A program made the position numbers and the translations under genes. The notes under the pieces are model-generated. The model made no database searches and was not told the DNA's origin. It saw only the letters and a program-made list of their open reading frames with translations. A stretch of DNA of 64,000 bases, taken from NCBI RefSeq assembly GCF_027622875.1, contig NZ_JAPZVP010000008.1, forward strand, positions 178,161 through 242,160. The letters run 5' to 3'. The stretch is from Glycomyces luteolus (lineage in GTDB: Bacteria > Actinomycetota > Actinomycetes > Mycobacteriales > Micromonosporaceae). Positions 19,543 to 24,999 of the stretch are shown in pieces. Numbering within the stretch: the first letter of the stretch is position 1; every line of letters starts with the position of its first letter.

Positions 19543-19896
19543 TTAAGCCATCTTCCAAGAACGGTCGCCGACAGTGGCAGTCAATTCGACGTGCCCGCCA
19601 ACCGCCGCAACATAATCTCTGACAACGTCAATGCCGGAGACCTCTCCTGATTCGATCTTGGATACCCGCGCCTGGCTCACACCGAGTTTCTCAGCGACCT
19701 CATCCTGCTTGAGGAGGGCAGCCTTGCGCATCTCGGCGAGCTGGTGCCCACGCACGTATGCATCAAGACGCGCCCTAGATGCTTCCTTGGCATCAATCTG
19801 CGAAGCATCGTCGCGGGCGTCAGCCTTCTGCCTACGAGCCTTGACTTCTTCCCATTTCGAGTACTTAGAGCGTGTCTCAGTTGGCGTGCAAGGCAT
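19543..19896 (-). CDS. HigA-like XRE antitoxin, 5' end replaced by IS sequence
   Basis: Helix-turn-helix antitoxin of the HigA/XRE kind: KQDEVAEKLGVSQARVSKIESG (63-84) is the DNA-binding motif and the tail VGGHVELTATVGDRSW is typical. The IS element sits right after codon 2 of the original gene, which began GTG ACT AAG TAC (M-T-K-Y), overlapping the toxin stop as GTGA. The body remains open into the IS, where an ATG at 19896 could give a 117-residue product with nine IS-derived residues (MPCTPTETR) replacing the native start. Whether it is expressed is unknown. The minus strand of the IS end would have to supply promoter and ribosome site. Confidence 0.7.
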   Translation of the reverse strand: MPCTPTETRSKYSKWEEVKARRQKADARDDASQIDAKEASRARLDAYVRGHQLAEMRKAALLKQDEVAEKLGVSQARVSKIESGEVSGIDVVRDYVAAVGGHVELTATVGDRSWKMA

Positions 19897-19912
19897 CTGG
19901 TATAGATCGTGC

Positions 19913-20269
19913 ATGGACGAGTTCACCAGGCGCCTTGTGCCCGATGGGTTGTGGGAGATTGTCGAGCCGCTGATTCCGGCCTCGCCGAAGCGGGCACAGG
20001 GCGGTGGTATCCCTCGGGCTGATGACCGGCAGGTGTTCGCGGCGGTCGTGTTCGTCCTGACCACCGGTTGCGCTTGGCGGCTCCTGCCGCCGGTCTTCGG
20101 CGTCTCGCACCAGACCGCGCACCGACGCTTCACCGAATGGTCCGAGGCAGCGCTGTGGGCCAAGCTCCACCGCACCGTGCTCGACCGGCTCGGCGCCGCC
20201 GGCGAGATCGACTGGTCGCGGGCGATCGTCGACGGCGCGAGCCTGCGCGCCAAAAAGGGGGATCACTGA
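19913..20269 (+). CDS. IS5-family transposase, upstream frame (OrfA)
   Basis: First frame of the transposase, 118 residues, from the ATG at 19913. It holds the N-terminal DUF4096-type domain (MDEFTRRLVPDGLWEIVEPLIP; TTGCAWRLLPPVFGVSHQTAHRRFTEW) and the first catalytic aspartate in AIVDGASLRAKKG. The frame ends at TGA 20267-20269, shortly after the run AAAAAGGGGG (20252-20261), where a -1 slip would continue into the second frame and give one full DDE enzyme. Confidence 0.9.
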   Translation: MDEFTRRLVPDGLWEIVEPLIPASPKRAQGGGIPRADDRQVFAAVVFVLTTGCAWRLLPPVFGVSHQTAHRRFTEWSEAALWAKLHRTVLDRLGAAGEIDWSRAIVDGASLRAKKGDH

Positions 20270-20718
20270 CCGGTCCAAATCCGGTCGATCGTGGCAAGTC
20301 CGGCTCGAAGATCCATGTCCTGTCCGACCGCGCCGGACTGCCACTAGCACTCGGGGTCTCAGCCGCGAACATGCACGATTCGCAAGCCTTCGAGCCGCTG
20401 GTCCAAGGCATCCCGAAGATCCGATCGCGACGCGGCCCGCGTCGCAGGAAACCCGCGAAGGTCCACGCCGACAAGGCCTACGACATCCCCGACTGCCACC
20501 GTGCGCTGCGCGAGCGGCACATCGGCGACAGGATCGCCCGCCGCGGCATCGAGTCCTCGGCCCGGCTCGGCCGCCACCGCTGGGTCATCGAACGGACCAT
20601 CGCCTGGCTCGGCGGCTACCGCCGCCTCACCATCCGGTACGAGCGCCACGGCCACCTGTTCGCCGCATTCCTCGCCCTCGCCGCCGCACTCACCTGCTAT
20701 AAGAAACTCGCCAACTGA
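20251..20718 (+). CDS. IS5-family transposase, downstream frame (OrfB)
   Basis: Second transposase frame, read after a -1 shift on AAA AAG at 20252-20257. It carries GSKIHVLSDRAGLPLALGVS, the second catalytic aspartate in HADKAYD and the glutamate in RWVIERTIAWLGGYRRL, completing the DDE set begun in OrfA. It has no start codon of its own near the junction, so it is probably made only as an OrfA-OrfB fusion of about 268 residues. It ends 9 bases before the element's right end. Confidence 0.9.
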   Translation, partial: QKGGSLTGPNPVDRGKSGSKIHVLSDRAGLPLALGVSAANMHDSQAFEPLVQGIPKIRSRRGPRRRKPAKVHADKAYDIPDCHRALRERHIGDRIARRGIESSARLGRHRWVIERTIAWLGGYRRLTIRYERHGHLFAAFLALAAALTCYKKLAN

Positions 20719-21110: not shown

Positions 21111-23132
21111 TTAGGCCTCTTCGGTTGCGGCGCTGGGGCCTTCGTTCACTCGGGACTTGACGATCTCGGCGACGTGGGCGATGGCCTCGTCGGCGGGGAC
21201 GCCGTTGCGCTGGGAGCCGTCGCGGTAGCGGAACGAGACGGTGCCCGCGTTCTGGTCGTCGTCTCCGGCGATGATCATGAACGGGGTCTTCTGGAGCTGG
21301 GCGTTGCGGACCTTCTTCTGCATCCGGTCGTCCGAGTGGTCGACCTCGCCGCGGATGCCCGCCGCGCGGAGCTTGCCGAAGAACGCCTCGAGGTAGTCGG
21401 CGTTCTCGTCGCGGACGGGGATGCCGACGGCCTGGACCGGTGCCAGCCACGCCGGGAACGCGCCCGCGTAGTGCTCGGTGAGCACGCCGAAGAACCGCTC
21501 GATCGAGCCGAAGAGCGCGCGGTGGATCATGACCGGCTGCTTGCGGGTGCCGTCCGCCGCCGAGTACTCGAGGTTGAAGCGCCCGGGCTGGTTGAAGTCG
21601 AGCTGGATGGTCGACATCTGCCAGGTCCGGCCGATCGCGTCCCGCGCCTGCACCGAGATCTTCGGGCCGTAGAAGGCCGCGCCGCCCGGGTCCGGGACCA
21701 GGTCGAGCCCGGACTCCTCGGCGACCTGGCGCAAGGTGGCGGTCGCGGAGTTCCACAGCTCGTCGTCGCCGATGAACTTCTCCGACTCGCCCTTGGTGGA
21801 GAGCTCCAGGTAGAAGTCGTTGAGCCCGTAGTCGCGCAGCAGCTGCAGCACGAACTCGAGCAGGCTCTTGATCTCGCCCGGCGCCTGCTCCTGGGTGCAG
21901 TAGATGTGCGCGTCGTCCTGGGTCAGGCCGCGCACGCGGGTCAGGCCGTGGACCACGCCCGACTTCTCGTAGCGGTACACGGTCCCGAACTCCGACAGGC
22001 GCAGCGGCAGCTCGCGGTACGAGCGCCCGCGCGAGCGGAAGATCAGGTTGTGCATCGGGCAGTTCATGGCCTTGAGGTAGTAGTTCGCGCCCTCGAGCTC
22101 CATCGGCGGGAACATGGTGTCCGCGTAGTACGGCAGGTGCCCCGAGGTGTGGAACAGCTGCTCCTTGGTGATGTGCGGGGTGTTCACCAGCTCGTACCCG
22201 GCCTCGCGCTGGCGTTCGCGCAGGTAGGACTCCATCTCGTGCCGGATGATCCCGCCCTTGGGGTGGAACACCGGGAGCCCGGAGCCGAGCTCGTCGGGGA
22301 ACGAGAAGAGGTCGAGCTGCTGCCCCAGCTTGCGGTGGTCGCGCTTCTCGGCCTCAGCGAGGCGCGCCAGGTAGTCCTTCTGGTCCTGGATGGTCGGCCA
22401 GGCGGTGCCGTAGATGCGCTGGAGCTGCGGGTTCTTCTCCGAGCCCATCCAGTACGCGGCGGCCGACCGCATGATCTTGACGGCCCCGATGAGCTTGGTC
22501 GAGGGCAGGTGCGGGCCGCGGCAGAGGTCGCCCCAGACGCGTTCGCCGTTGCGGTCGTGGTTGTCGTACGCGGTGAGCTCGCCGCCGCCGACCTCCATGA
22601 CCTCGTCGGCGTCGGTGCCCTCGCCCTTGGTCTCGATGAGCTCGAGCTTGTACGGCTCGTTCGCGAGTTCGGCGCGGGCCTCGTCGAGAGACGCGTACTT
22701 GCGTCGGTGGAAGGTCTGCCCCTGCTTGATGATCTGGAGCATCCGCTTCTCGACGGCCTTGAGGTCGTCCGGGTTGAACGGCTCCTCGACGTCGAAGTCG
22801 TAGTAGAAGCCGTCGGTGATCGGCGGGCCGATGCCCAGCTTGGCCTGGTGCAGCTCCTGCACCGCCTGCGCCATGACGTGCGCGGCGGAGTGGCGCATCA
22901 CGTTGAGCCCGTCGGGGCTGCCCAGCGGTACGGGCTCGACCTTGGTGTCGGCTTCGGGGGCCCAGGAGAGGTCGCGCAGCTGCCCGTCGGCGTCGCGGAC
23001 GACGACGATCGCGTTCGGCCCGTTGCCGGGGAGGCCGGCCTCGGCCACCGCTTCAGCGCACGTGGTGCCAGCAGTGACCCACAGCGGTTCGATGACGGCT
23101 GGGCTGCTGTGGTTCGGCGCTGCGGGTGCCAC
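21111..23132 (-). CDS. thrS: threonine--tRNA ligase
   Basis: Class II synthetase charging tRNA-Thr. I chose the GTG at 23132 because GAGGAG stands 4 bases upstream; the frame also opens at 23189. The 673 residues contain a TGS domain at the N-terminus, the editing domain with [11 protein letters not shown], and the catalytic core with [29 protein letters not shown] (motif 2) and the zinc-site stretch [11 protein letters not shown]. The C-terminal anticodon-binding domain ends PSAATEEA. Normal length. In relatives it sits directly beside the HIT and pgsA genes; here the antiporter, toxin remnant and IS intervene. Confidence 0.97.
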
Positions 23133-23266
23133 GGTTCTCCTCGTTCGGTGCTGGTCATCGGAGTTTCCGATGTCGGATAACGGGTCCATGGTAGTAGCCG
23201 CGAGGCGGTGGACTCCATCGCATTAGTCCCGTGGTGAGCGCGTCGGAGATTTCTTCGGGTCGGGAC

Positions 23267-23298
23267 TTGACCTTGGTCCTGACACCAAGGTTTACGGT
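23267..23298 (+). promoter_or_regulatory. MerR-type promoter with 20-bp spacer and internal operator
   Basis: -35 TTGACC (23267-23272) and -10 TACGGT (23293-23298) are separated by 20 bases, the over-long spacing typical of MerR-controlled promoters. The spacer region holds a perfect dyad ACCTTGGT-N6-ACCAAGGT (23270-23277 and 23284-23291). The -10 ends 6 bases before the MerR ATG, so transcription should start at or very near that ATG, giving a leaderless message. This implies auto-regulation by the MerR protein encoded next. Confidence 0.8.
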
Positions 23299-23304
23299 CG
23301 TCGT

Positions 23305-23772
23305 ATGACCGCAGCAACCGTCACCCTGACCGTCGGGAAGCTCGCCGAGGAGGTGGGCGTCTCGTCCGATGCCATCCGCCACTGGGAGCGCGAGGGCCTG
23401 TTCCCCGCGCCCGAGCGCAGTCCGTCCGGTTACCGCCGGTACGGGACGGCCGAGCTCGACCGGGCGCGGTTCATCCGGGCGTGCCAGCGCGCGGGGCTGC
23501 GCCTGGCCGACATCGCGGACCTGCTGGCGGTGCGCGACACCGGCACGTGCCCGTGCGAGCCGGCCGGGCAGCATCTCGAGCGGCGGATCGGCGAGATCAC
23601 GGCCGAGATCGTGCGGTTGGAGGGGTTGCGGAGCCAGCTGACGGACATGCTGCGGGCGGTCGACGCGGGCTCCTGCGAACCGCCGCTGCCTGAGAACTGG
23701 TGTCCCCCGGTCCCGGAGAAACCTGCGAGTGGTGAATCCGCTGAGTTCGTCGTTGGAGGTGAGTGCAAGTGA
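23305..23772 (+). CDS. MerR-family metal-responsive regulator
   Basis: 155-residue regulator with an N-terminal winged helix (LTVGKLAEEVGVSSDAIRHWEREGLF, 8-33), a dimerisation helix (about 88-119), and cysteines placed as in soft-metal sensors: C82 and C84 (TCPC), then a loop C124-x8-C133, plus C154 near the end. ZntR/CadR/PbrR-like members use equivalent cysteines; which metal is sensed here cannot be told. The ATG overlaps the expected transcription start (leaderless). Its TGA stop overlaps the ATG of the cysteine-rich peptide gene as ATGA/TGATG, so both are made from one message. Confidence 0.88.
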   Translation: MTAATVTLTVGKLAEEVGVSSDAIRHWEREGLFPAPERSPSGYRRYGTAELDRARFIRACQRAGLRLADIADLLAVRDTGTCPCEPAGQHLERRIGEITAEIVRLEGLRSQLTDMLRAVDAGSCEPPLPENWCPPVPEKPASGESAEFVVGGECK

Positions 23773-23861
23773 TGATGACTGACGAGTGCTGCAACTGCTG
23801 CAATGACACCGCGTGCGACTGCGGTGGACAGGAATGCTGCCACGGCTGCTGCGAGAAGTAG
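23772..23861 (+). CDS. 29-residue cysteine-rich metallothionein-like peptide
   Basis: Tiny gene not detectable by usual length cut-offs. The product has ten cysteines (6, 7, 9, 10, 15, 17, 22, 23, 26, 27) and one histidine (24) in 29 residues, arranged CCNCC, CDC, CCHGCC with acidic and Gly/Asn spacers, and lacks aromatic residues: the profile of a metallothionein. The ATG (23772; a second ATG at 23775) overlaps the MerR stop, and GGAGGT lies about 11 bases upstream. A strong hairpin follows 8 bases after the stop. I infer a metal-binding buffer induced with MerR. I do not recognise a described family; MymT and SmtA are longer and arranged differently. Confidence 0.75.
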   Translation: MMTDECCNCCNDTACDCGGQECCHGCCEK

Positions 23862-23868
23862 GCGAACG

Positions 23869-23913
23869 AGACGCGCCCGCCACCGTCCCATCGGGACGGT
23901 GGCGGGCGCGTCT
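23869..23913 (+). terminator. strong hairpin after the MerR/peptide unit
   Basis: Perfect 21-bp stem (23869-23889 with 23893-23913) around a 3-base loop, followed by a short TTGG. It begins 8 bases past the peptide stop codon and isolates the two-gene unit from the convergent oxidoreductase gene. Confidence 0.85.
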
Positions 23914-24020: not shown

Positions 24021-24977
24021 CTACTCGGCGGTGAGGACGATCTTGCCGAAGTGGCCTCCCGCGCCCATGATGCGGTGGGCTTCGGCCGCCTCCGCCAACG
24101 GGATGCGGGTCGTGACGACCGGTTCGATCTCGCCTGAGTCGAGTGCGGGCCAGATGCGTTCGAAGGCTTCGGCGAGGATCTGGCGGCGCTGCTCGAGCGG
24201 GCGGGCCCGGAGGGTGGTGCCGGTGATGGTGGCGCGCTTGGCAAGGAGGCCGCCGAGGTGGATCTGCGCGGCGGCGCCCTGCTGGAGGCCGATGATCGCG
24301 AGGCGTCCGTCCTGCGCCAGGGCCTTGAGGTTCGGCTCGAAGTAGGCCGCGCCGATCACGTCGAGGATCGCGTCCGCGCCGCCCGCTTCCATGGCGAGCG
24401 CGGCGAAGTCCTCGCTGCGGTAGTCGATGACGCGGTCGGCGCCGAGGGCTTGGAGCTTCTGGGTCCATTCGGCGCGGGCGGTCGTCCAGGTCTCGGCGTC
24501 GGCGAGCTTCTTCGCGAACTGGATCGCGAACGTCCCGATGCCGCCCGCGCCGCCGTGCACGAGCACGCGCCGCTTGCGGTCGGCCTCCGAGTCCAGCAGG
24601 TAACCCAGGTTCGAGTACACGGTCGCGGCGACTTCGGGCAGTCCGGCCGCGTCGATCAGCGACACCTTCTCGGGCTTGGGGAGCACGAGTCCGGCGTCCA
24701 CGGTGGCGTACTGGGCGTAGCCGCCGCCGGGGAGGAGGGCGCAGACCTCGGCGCCGAGGAAGGACGCGTTGTCGTCGCTGCCGACGTTGACGATCGTGCC
24801 GGAGACCTCGAGGCCGGGCCAGGCGGGGGCGCCGGGCGGGCTCGGGTAGTGCCCGGCGACTTGGAGGAGGTCGGCGCGGTTGACGCCGGCCGCGGCGACC
24901 TCGATGAGGACTTCTTCGGGGCCGGGCGCGGGTTCGGGGACCTGGGCGGCGGTGAGGCGGCCGTCGGCGACGGTCAT
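24021..24977 (-). CDS. NAD(P)H quinone oxidoreductase, PIG3 family
   Basis: Zinc-free medium-chain dehydrogenase/reductase of 318 residues reducing quinones or similar acceptors with NADPH. It shows AAAGVNRADLLQVAGHYPSPPGAP at the N-terminal substrate domain and the nucleotide-binding HGGAGGIGTFAIQFAKKL, followed by GADRVIDYRSEDF, as in PIG3/TP53I3 proteins. The ATG at 24977 has GGAG 9 bases upstream and is preferred to the ATG at 24986, which touches the same GGAG. A 16-bp palindrome lies just upstream, suggesting repression by an unlinked regulator. Confidence 0.88.
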   Translation of the reverse strand: MTVADGRLTAAQVPEPAPGPEEVLIEVAAAGVNRADLLQVAGHYPSPPGAPAWPGLEVSGTIVNVGSDDNASFLGAEVCALLPGGGYAQYATVDAGLVLPKPEKVSLIDAAGLPEVAATVYSNLGYLLDSEADRKRRVLVHGGAGGIGTFAIQFAKKLADAETWTTARAEWTQKLQALGADRVIDYRSEDFAALAMEAGGADAILDVIGAAYFEPNLKALAQDGRLAIIGLQQGAAAQIHLGGLLAKRATITGTTLRARPLEQRRQILAEAFERIWPALDSGEIEPVVTTRIPLAEAAEAHRIMGAGGHFGKIVLTAE

Positions 24978-24999
24978 GGCAAGCATCTCCGCATAGTAT

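Follow-up and report, generated by a model that had tools for sequence, protein, structure and literature searches.

A merR-type gene coupled to a very short cysteine-rich ORF in Glycomyces luteolus: a probable minimal metal sensor-and-buffer operon

In the actinobacterium Glycomyces luteolus, a merR-type regulator gene overlaps a 29-codon ORF whose predicted product contains ten cysteines, and the two genes probably constitute a minimal autoregulated metal sensor-and-buffer operon. The unit spans positions 23267-23913 of the window, by which we mean the whole 64,000-nt stretch of genomic DNA analysed, and comprises, as read from the sequence, a promoter with its dyad, merR, the 29-codon ORF and a hairpin (Table 1). 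Comparison with relatives indicates that this ORF is very probably a real gene. That a metal acts as the inducer, which metal this might be, that the peptide binds metal and that it serves as a buffer are inferences, made in the absence of expression, translation, metal-induction or binding data.

Table 1. Features of the merR-peptide unit and its flanking genes, in window coordinates.
Feature	Position	Strand	Basis or remark
-35 element TTGACC	23267-23272	+	sequence
Promoter spacer, 20 nt	23273-23292	+	sequence
-10 element TACGGT	23293-23298	+	sequence
merR-peptide promoter, whole	23267-23298	+	sequence
Dyad, perfect over 8 bp, inside spacer; presumed MerR operator	23270-23291	.	sequence
merR-type regulator gene, 155 aa	23305-23772	+	Pfam MerR_1, MerR, MerR-DNA-bind
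Shine-Dalgarno sequence GGAGGTGA, strong, for peptide; within merR 3' end	23755-23762	+	sequence
Cys-rich peptide gene, 29 aa, 10 Cys	23772-23861	+	start overlaps merR stop (TGATG)
Hairpin, 21 bp perfect, 3-nt loop	23869-23913	+	presumed terminator between convergent genes
Threonyl-tRNA synthetase gene (thrS)	21111-23189	minus	divergent
PIG3-type quinone oxidoreductase gene	24021-24986	minus	convergent

An earlier note on this DNA had described a promoter with a 20-bp spacing and a perfect internal dyad, an apparently leaderless merR and a translationally coupled peptide gene, and each of these features was borne out. The long spacer and the 8-bp dyad, with arms ACCTTGGT (23270-23277) and ACCAAGGT (23284-23291), can be read directly, and the merR start codon lies only 6 nt past the -10 element, so that the mRNA is probably leaderless, although no transcript data exist. 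The merR stop codon (TGA, 23770-23772) shares its last base with the ATG of the peptide gene, which ends with a TAG at 23859-23861. The predicted peptide, MMTDECCNCCNDTACDCGGQECCHGCCEK, consists of 34% cysteine and lacks Phe, Tyr and Trp altogether. A GTG in the same frame, at 23763, could serve as an alternative start; however, the equivalent position reads GTA in the relative L012, where the overlap is still kept, and the overlapping start is therefore preferred. Among relatives, the start codon varies between ATG and GTG. Within the window, no co-directional gene follows the peptide, the next gene being the convergent quinone oxidoreductase gene. Elsewhere in the window (19631-20718), two overlapping plus-strand frames resemble, by eye, an IS5-type transposase split across two frames.

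Relatives of the unit were collected through the MerR sequence alone, without reference to the peptide. The regulator's nearest named relatives are from Glycomyces species, with 90% identity to the protein of Glycomyces sp. YM15. Matches were obtained in 36 of 200 family genomes (E<=1e-20), and genome contigs yielded 28 loci. A profile of 19 MerRs (alignment A1) then matched 96 of 397 order genomes at E<=1e-25 and 60 of 394 class genomes; its rows had been selected after their peptides were visible, whereas all later matches were taken on MerR score only. The scores of the order and class searches fell into two groups, at least 159.8 and at most 131.6 bits, with a gap that is filled by a more distant group found later in a phylum search. 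With a cut at 140 bits and identical MerR sequences collapsed, 160 loci gave 82 clade members and 43 other MerRs. The non-clade matches were fetched only in part and closely related sequences were kept, so the rows do not count as independent. Among the phages searched, there were only five distant MerR matches.

Using a fixed filter (ATG or GTG at -60 to +40 relative to the merR stop, at least 9 residues, at least four cysteines and at least 20% cysteine), we found a cysteine-rich mini-ORF at the merR stop of 73 of the 82 distinct clade MerRs and of none of the 43 others. The filter rarely passes by chance: it was met at 2 of 1456 other long-ORF stops and 3 of 18008 arbitrary positions, places near a merR stop being set aside in both cases, and in 0 of 1640 shuffles. 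Of the nine misses, L121 and L029 retain an intact peptide although their merR frame is broken, and L093 has the peptide fused in frame to MerR. In the G. lechevalierae copy (L004), a deletion has taken away the peptide's end and, by eye, the hairpin as well, and L122 is a second copy that has degenerated. The last four (L130-L133) belong to a sister group with a CPCGD motif, in which both the peptide and a dyad of their own are absent. When MerRs with a CPCE motif were pooled from the main clade set and the phylum-search set, counting in one CACE variant (L096), 75 of 82 distinct sequences passed the filter, and a Shine-Dalgarno-like motif lay near the merR stop in 73 of these 82 members, compared with 6 of 43 other MerRs. 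At the 73 CPCE-motif loci with a start between -10 and +40, the peptides measure 11-32 residues (median 20, longest start used) and contain 5-10 cysteines. On a MerR tree of 143 rows, many of whose forks are unresolved, the peptide trait requires 8 changes, as opposed to 44.5 with shuffled labels; 87 rows were labelled as having the peptide, six of them by hand (L121, L029, L093, L175, L171, L179), and rows of fewer than 100 residues were excluded. Judged from sequence, and for the MerRs compared, the mini-ORF is thus confined to this clade and its sister. Its genomic surroundings are stable within Glycomyces, where a family-genome search found thrS at 17 of 17 loci and the quinone oxidoreductase gene at 16, the contig ending at the 17th; among the clade loci tested outside the genus, these neighbours occur only at L029. 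The system is dispensable, given that 5 of the 22 same-genus genomes listed lack a match and that G. lechevalierae has lost the end of the peptide together with the hairpin.

The earlier note had held that its proposal would fall if the peptide frame were not conserved or showed no synonymous-site bias in relatives. In the event, the frame is conserved across the MerR clade, and the bias is evident within Glycomyces: twelve distinct peptides of one layout gave a pN of 0.099, a pS of 0.339 and a dN/dS of 0.23, and in the other two frames of the same copies pN exceeded pS. As these copies were chosen by their cysteine layout, 120 cysteine codons are conserved by construction; the 14 non-cysteine codons alone still yielded a dN/dS of 0.37 (pN 0.176, pS 0.388). 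Five of the 17 Glycomyces loci are omitted from this set, namely the truncated L004 and L015-L018, which encode a different, shorter cysteine-rich peptide. Homology searches with such short queries have little power: no match was found in Pfam at E<=10 for the window peptide and nine relatives, or, for the window peptide, in NCBIfam at E<=1 and among PDB chains at E<=10.

In MerR metalloregulators of the divalent-metal type, the cysteines that bind the metal lie where the dimerisation helix begins and in a C-terminal loop. The regulator encoded here matches PF13411 (MerR_1; E 1e-17), PF00376 (E 1.9e-16) and PF09278 (MerR-DNA-bind; E 2e-14), all above gathering scores, and falls short of the cut-off in all the NCBIfam families listed, including the equivalogs for MerR-Hg (79.1 bits, cut-off 150.85), CadR/PbrR (75.6, 151.45), ZntR (66.0, 167.95) and CueR (60.3, 147.4). 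Its cysteines lie in a CPCEP motif (Cys82, Cys84) and at positions 124 and 133, the latter two delimiting a proline-rich C-x8-C loop; in alignment A1, Cys124 is invariant and Cys133 is present in 17 of 19 rows. Among solved structures, profile A1 comes closest to CadR, the mercuric regulator 5crl and 4ua1, an entry named 'Regulatory protein'. In the first two, a cysteine that opens the dimerisation helix is aligned with Cys84, but the alignments end before the Cys124-Cys133 loop. The protein resembles MerR, CadR and ZntR in its helix-turn-helix and dimerisation helix, in a cysteine aligned with the helix start and in the 20-nt spacer with its dyad, but it differs from them in scoring far under their equivalog cut-offs, in the additional Cys82, which creates a CPC motif, in its C-x8-C loop and in presumably directing transcription of its own gene.

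MerR-family activators typically act on promoters with a 19-20 bp spacer and a dyad. An operator of the type seen here (at least 17 of 23 scored positions) precedes 76 of the 82 CPCE-motif members and 3 of the 43 other MerRs, with the start codon located 6-8 nt past the -10 element in 74 of those 76 loci. The six members without it include two plasmid cases with the dyad facing the opposite way, the degenerate copy L122, an incomplete merR frame (L058) and a locus scoring 16 (L057); L013, with 18 of 22 positions in another scoring, was missed in the count because of an over-long frame. The promoter scan is blind to such sites, since its sigma-70 model spans spacers of 16-18 nt. In the genome containing the window, the dyad promoter pattern occurs once without mismatches, before merR, and the only other forward site within three mismatches (it has two) precedes a different merR-type gene. 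Similarly, among the genomes of 38 chosen relatives, sites were detected in 32, and 33 of 35 distinct sites precede the clade's merR, the remaining two being one with two mismatches before another MerR gene and one with three mismatches. As far as this pattern can see, the regulator would control mainly its own operon, with the peptide as the sole product besides MerR. In six genomes, merR's own operator went uncaught, so that diverged second targets could have been missed. A second merR-type gene of the window's genome (L061, G000:C23:292179) has a similar dyad promoter before itself.

The best functional clue comes from plasmids. A clade MerR (E<=1e-28) is encoded on 5 of 72,556 plasmid records. 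The peptide is present on two Rhodococcus plasmids (L161, L233) and absent from two Streptomyces plasmids, which show no difference across merR and the 200 nt after it, and from one M. abscessus plasmid. All three peptide-less plasmids carry a gene for a heavy-metal P-type ATPase divergent from merR, and in both of those read, the 20-nt-spacer dyad promoter faces the ATPase gene. For the plasmid ATPases, the top-scoring subfamily is the cadmium one, TIGR01512 (453 and 465 bits against a cut-off of 313.5), but they also exceed the cut-off of the copper subfamily (416 and 418 bits versus 397), and the proteins encoded at L162:5811-7820 and L163:3833-5848 share an unusual CSC motif located some 40 residues ahead of DKTGT, so that the metal is not fixed. 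Both have a cysteine-rich N-terminal tail (DACGCDDAC and ECGGCGDSC). Since the M. abscessus plasmid groups with the Streptomyces plasmids on the MerR tree, these cases form a single lineage, which appears to use a pump where its relatives use the peptide; this is one evolutionary event, which does not name the metal. A CopA-type ATPase gene near L165 (L211) was considered as a further output and rejected on orientation alone, as it is convergent with merR. Near the CPCGD sister-group merR L131, which has no peptide, lies the end of an ATPase frame (L131:3337-3888) that matches the cadmium-family C terminus as a fragment, under the cut-off (64 bits), and whose cysteine-rich tail contains CGDDCGCG twice; a link to merR has not been shown.

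In established MerR biology, the dimer and RNA polymerase sit together at an over-long spacer until metal binding twists the DNA. By the same logic, a MerR activator of the thiol-metal type would occupy the promoter with its over-long 20-bp spacing and hold RNA polymerase there. Binding of a thiophilic metal to its conserved cysteines would then twist the DNA and open the promoter, giving rise to a self-activated, leaderless merR-peptide mRNA. Ribosomes that finish merR may re-initiate at the overlapping ATG and produce the 29-residue, ten-cysteine peptide, whose thiolates would sequester the metal; as free metal drops, the operon would fall silent and the loop close. The earlier note had proposed such a sensor and buffer, and its proposal gained support from the exchange of the peptide for an ATPase within the clade, from operators located almost only before merR and, in the window, from the fact that no gene in the same direction follows the peptide, even though metal activation and metal binding are still inferred. 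The Zn/Cd/Pb class is slightly favoured as the inducer; copper or arsenic is not excluded.

The system extends beyond the class. In 18 of 296 phylum genomes, a match was obtained at E<=1e-40, and 15 of these represent a CPCGHT sister group from other classes. All 15 share the same operator, and eight pass the peptide filter. Of the rest, one has a fused peptide (L175), one a peptide further downstream (L179) and five no such form: L168 has an ORF with two cysteines, L169 a thioredoxin-like frame, L176 and L178 a longer cysteine-containing protein, and in L170 nothing was seen. A peptide of the CPCCGCPCGDCGG type recurs across four genera. At L230 and L231, a CPCGHT MerR is followed by a protein of 81-98 residues with a cysteine-rich N terminus, and the surrounding genes resemble, by eye, those for CooC-type nickel ATPases and HypF.

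The range of forms bears on the possibility that the peptide is mainly a partner of MerR rather than a bulk buffer, either stripping metal from the regulator and so ending the signal or delivering metal to it. The tight translational coupling to merR and the presence of the operator almost solely at merR itself would fit such a role, as would in-frame MerR-peptide fusions in two different lineages, L093 (genome G570) and L175 (genome G1019), although both retain the internal ATG, so that a separate peptide may still be produced there. However, the large variation in length and sequence (11-32 residues, 5-10 cysteines) and the two tandem, different cysteine-rich peptide ORFs that follow merR in three other-class actinobacteria (L220-L222) fit sequestration better than a specific protein contact, and the peptide is missing where the ATPase is the output. 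We therefore consider a partner role unlikely, without dismissing it.

It is also conceivable, though we think it quite improbable, that the inducer is As(III), an electrophile or thiol/disulfide stress instead of a metal cation, with the peptide in the role of redox buffer or thiol scavenger. Its vicinal CC and its CXC motifs suit As(III). Among eight larger contexts (L212-L219), inspected by eye with few proteins scanned, genes of a metal or metalloid type were seen in L217 only, where merR and the peptide are followed by aquaporin-like (MIP) and arsenate-reductase-like genes (L217:3625-4754, genome G969), both under the NCBIfam cut-offs. This arrangement suggests an arsenic-linked version of the unit, predicted from gene content, so that different members of the wider family may respond to different inducers. 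The 'self-contained' character ascribed to the unit in the earlier note accordingly holds in Glycomyces but not in some other-class relatives, which add a second peptide or the aquaporin-like and arsenate-reductase-like genes. A role in thiol stress could also accommodate the thioredoxin-like frame VEVFTAGCPVCE, noted by eye after merR in the CPCGHT relative L169. The frames following three control MerRs (L106, L119, L149), of which only the first codons were seen, start in a similar way, and merR with a thioredoxin-like frame is possibly a parallel pairing of a sensor with a thiol protein. On the other hand, only one other output is clear in the CPCEP clade, namely a P-type ATPase of the heavy-metal kind, and Cys84 aligns with a cysteine of CadR and of the mercuric regulator, in line with the metal-sensing reading we prefer.

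The 21-bp hairpin described for the locus was likewise borne out, its role as a terminator being presumed. Its arms lie at 23869-23889 and 23893-23913 in a 69-nt stretch that folds at -57.7 kcal/mol (z -8.35), but it lacks a T-run, and the terminator scan lists no terminator there. In 36 of 72 clade loci, a hairpin with a perfectly paired arm of 8 bp or more begins within 90 nt downstream of the peptide gene, versus 11 of 316 positions taken at random and 20 of 360 shuffles; Rfam gave only sub-threshold matches, mostly to the hairpin. A strong hairpin 3' of the ORF could point to a cysteine-responsive regulatory short ORF, for which the act of translation would matter and not the product. Mycobacterial polycysteine attenuator ORFs, which regulate a downstream gene, provide a precedent in that they are likewise short, cysteine-rich, actinobacterial and missed by annotation (Canestrari 2020, as cited in PMC9094748). 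Attenuator ORFs, however, precede the gene they control, whereas the ORF here follows the regulator as the last of the unit in the window, ahead of a convergent gene. In addition, its sequence forms an in-frame extension of MerR in two relatives, even if both keep the internal ATG. We rejected an attenuator role on these grounds of position and fusion and regard it as highly improbable. That the ORF is merely an untranslated chance frame in GC-rich DNA, as the lack of proteomic or ribosome data and of any family match might allow, is scarcely credible in view of its conservation, purifying selection, start and Shine-Dalgarno architecture and clade specificity.

Bacterial metallothioneins are small, very cysteine-rich proteins with few or no aromatic residues. 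The peptide meets this description in composition, although it has no match to a described family and is unusually small by comparison. It is similar in size to the copper metallothionein of Neurospora crassa, a ribosomally made peptide of about 25 residues, which is fungal and, to our knowledge, not encoded with its own regulator; nor do we know of any coupling between MymT of Mycobacterium tuberculosis and a merR gene. MymT is likewise a small cysteine-rich protein of an actinobacterium. It is required for copper detoxification (PMC7387436). By analogy, the closest precedents are the CadR-zrd and SmtA/SmtB systems. In Pseudomonas aeruginosa, the MerR-family Zn/Cd sensor CadR turns on zrd, which encodes a small cysteine-containing protein that its authors liken to metallothioneins (PMC12301328). 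Zrd, however, has two predicted Cys4 zinc-ribbon sites and is a separate member of the regulon (PMC12301328), whereas the peptide considered here is short, has no recognised domain and is coupled to the gene of its regulator. SmtA and SmtB of Synechococcus similarly represent a self-contained pair of adjoining metallothionein and sensor genes, but SmtB is a divergently transcribed repressor (PMC7387436), while the MerR-type protein here shares an mRNA with a much smaller peptide. The coupling of a metal sensor to a metallothionein-like sink is therefore known; what seems new is a MerR on the same transcript together with a peptide this small in a bacterium. Among the matches listed by a search of the open PMC literature, based on titles and the starts of abstracts and not covering subscription journals or preprints, there was no description of such a unit.

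Collectively, our findings make it reasonably likely, if with less assurance than for the operon itself, that the unit represents a family of peptides, common among actinobacteria yet undescribed to date, that are ribosomally made, cysteine-rich, only about 11-32 residues long and quick to diverge, and that bind metal. Each would be linked to a MerR sensor of its own through adjoining or overlapping genes and a leaderless, self-activated mRNA, such that sensor and sink form one transcript that can replace an efflux pump. The approach also offers a route to functional micro-ORFs that is anchored at the conserved stop codon of a regulator instead of relying on peptide similarity. If the proposal is correct, some 75 natural variants would be available to learn how cysteine patterns and MerR metal sites match up, and the units could provide compact parts for metal biosensors. 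Moreover, a very simple metal-homeostasis circuit, with a sensor and a sink on one mRNA and no pump, would become testable, and many actinobacteria would turn out to use metallothionein-like peptides of about 11-32 residues, which are easily missed by annotation because of their size.
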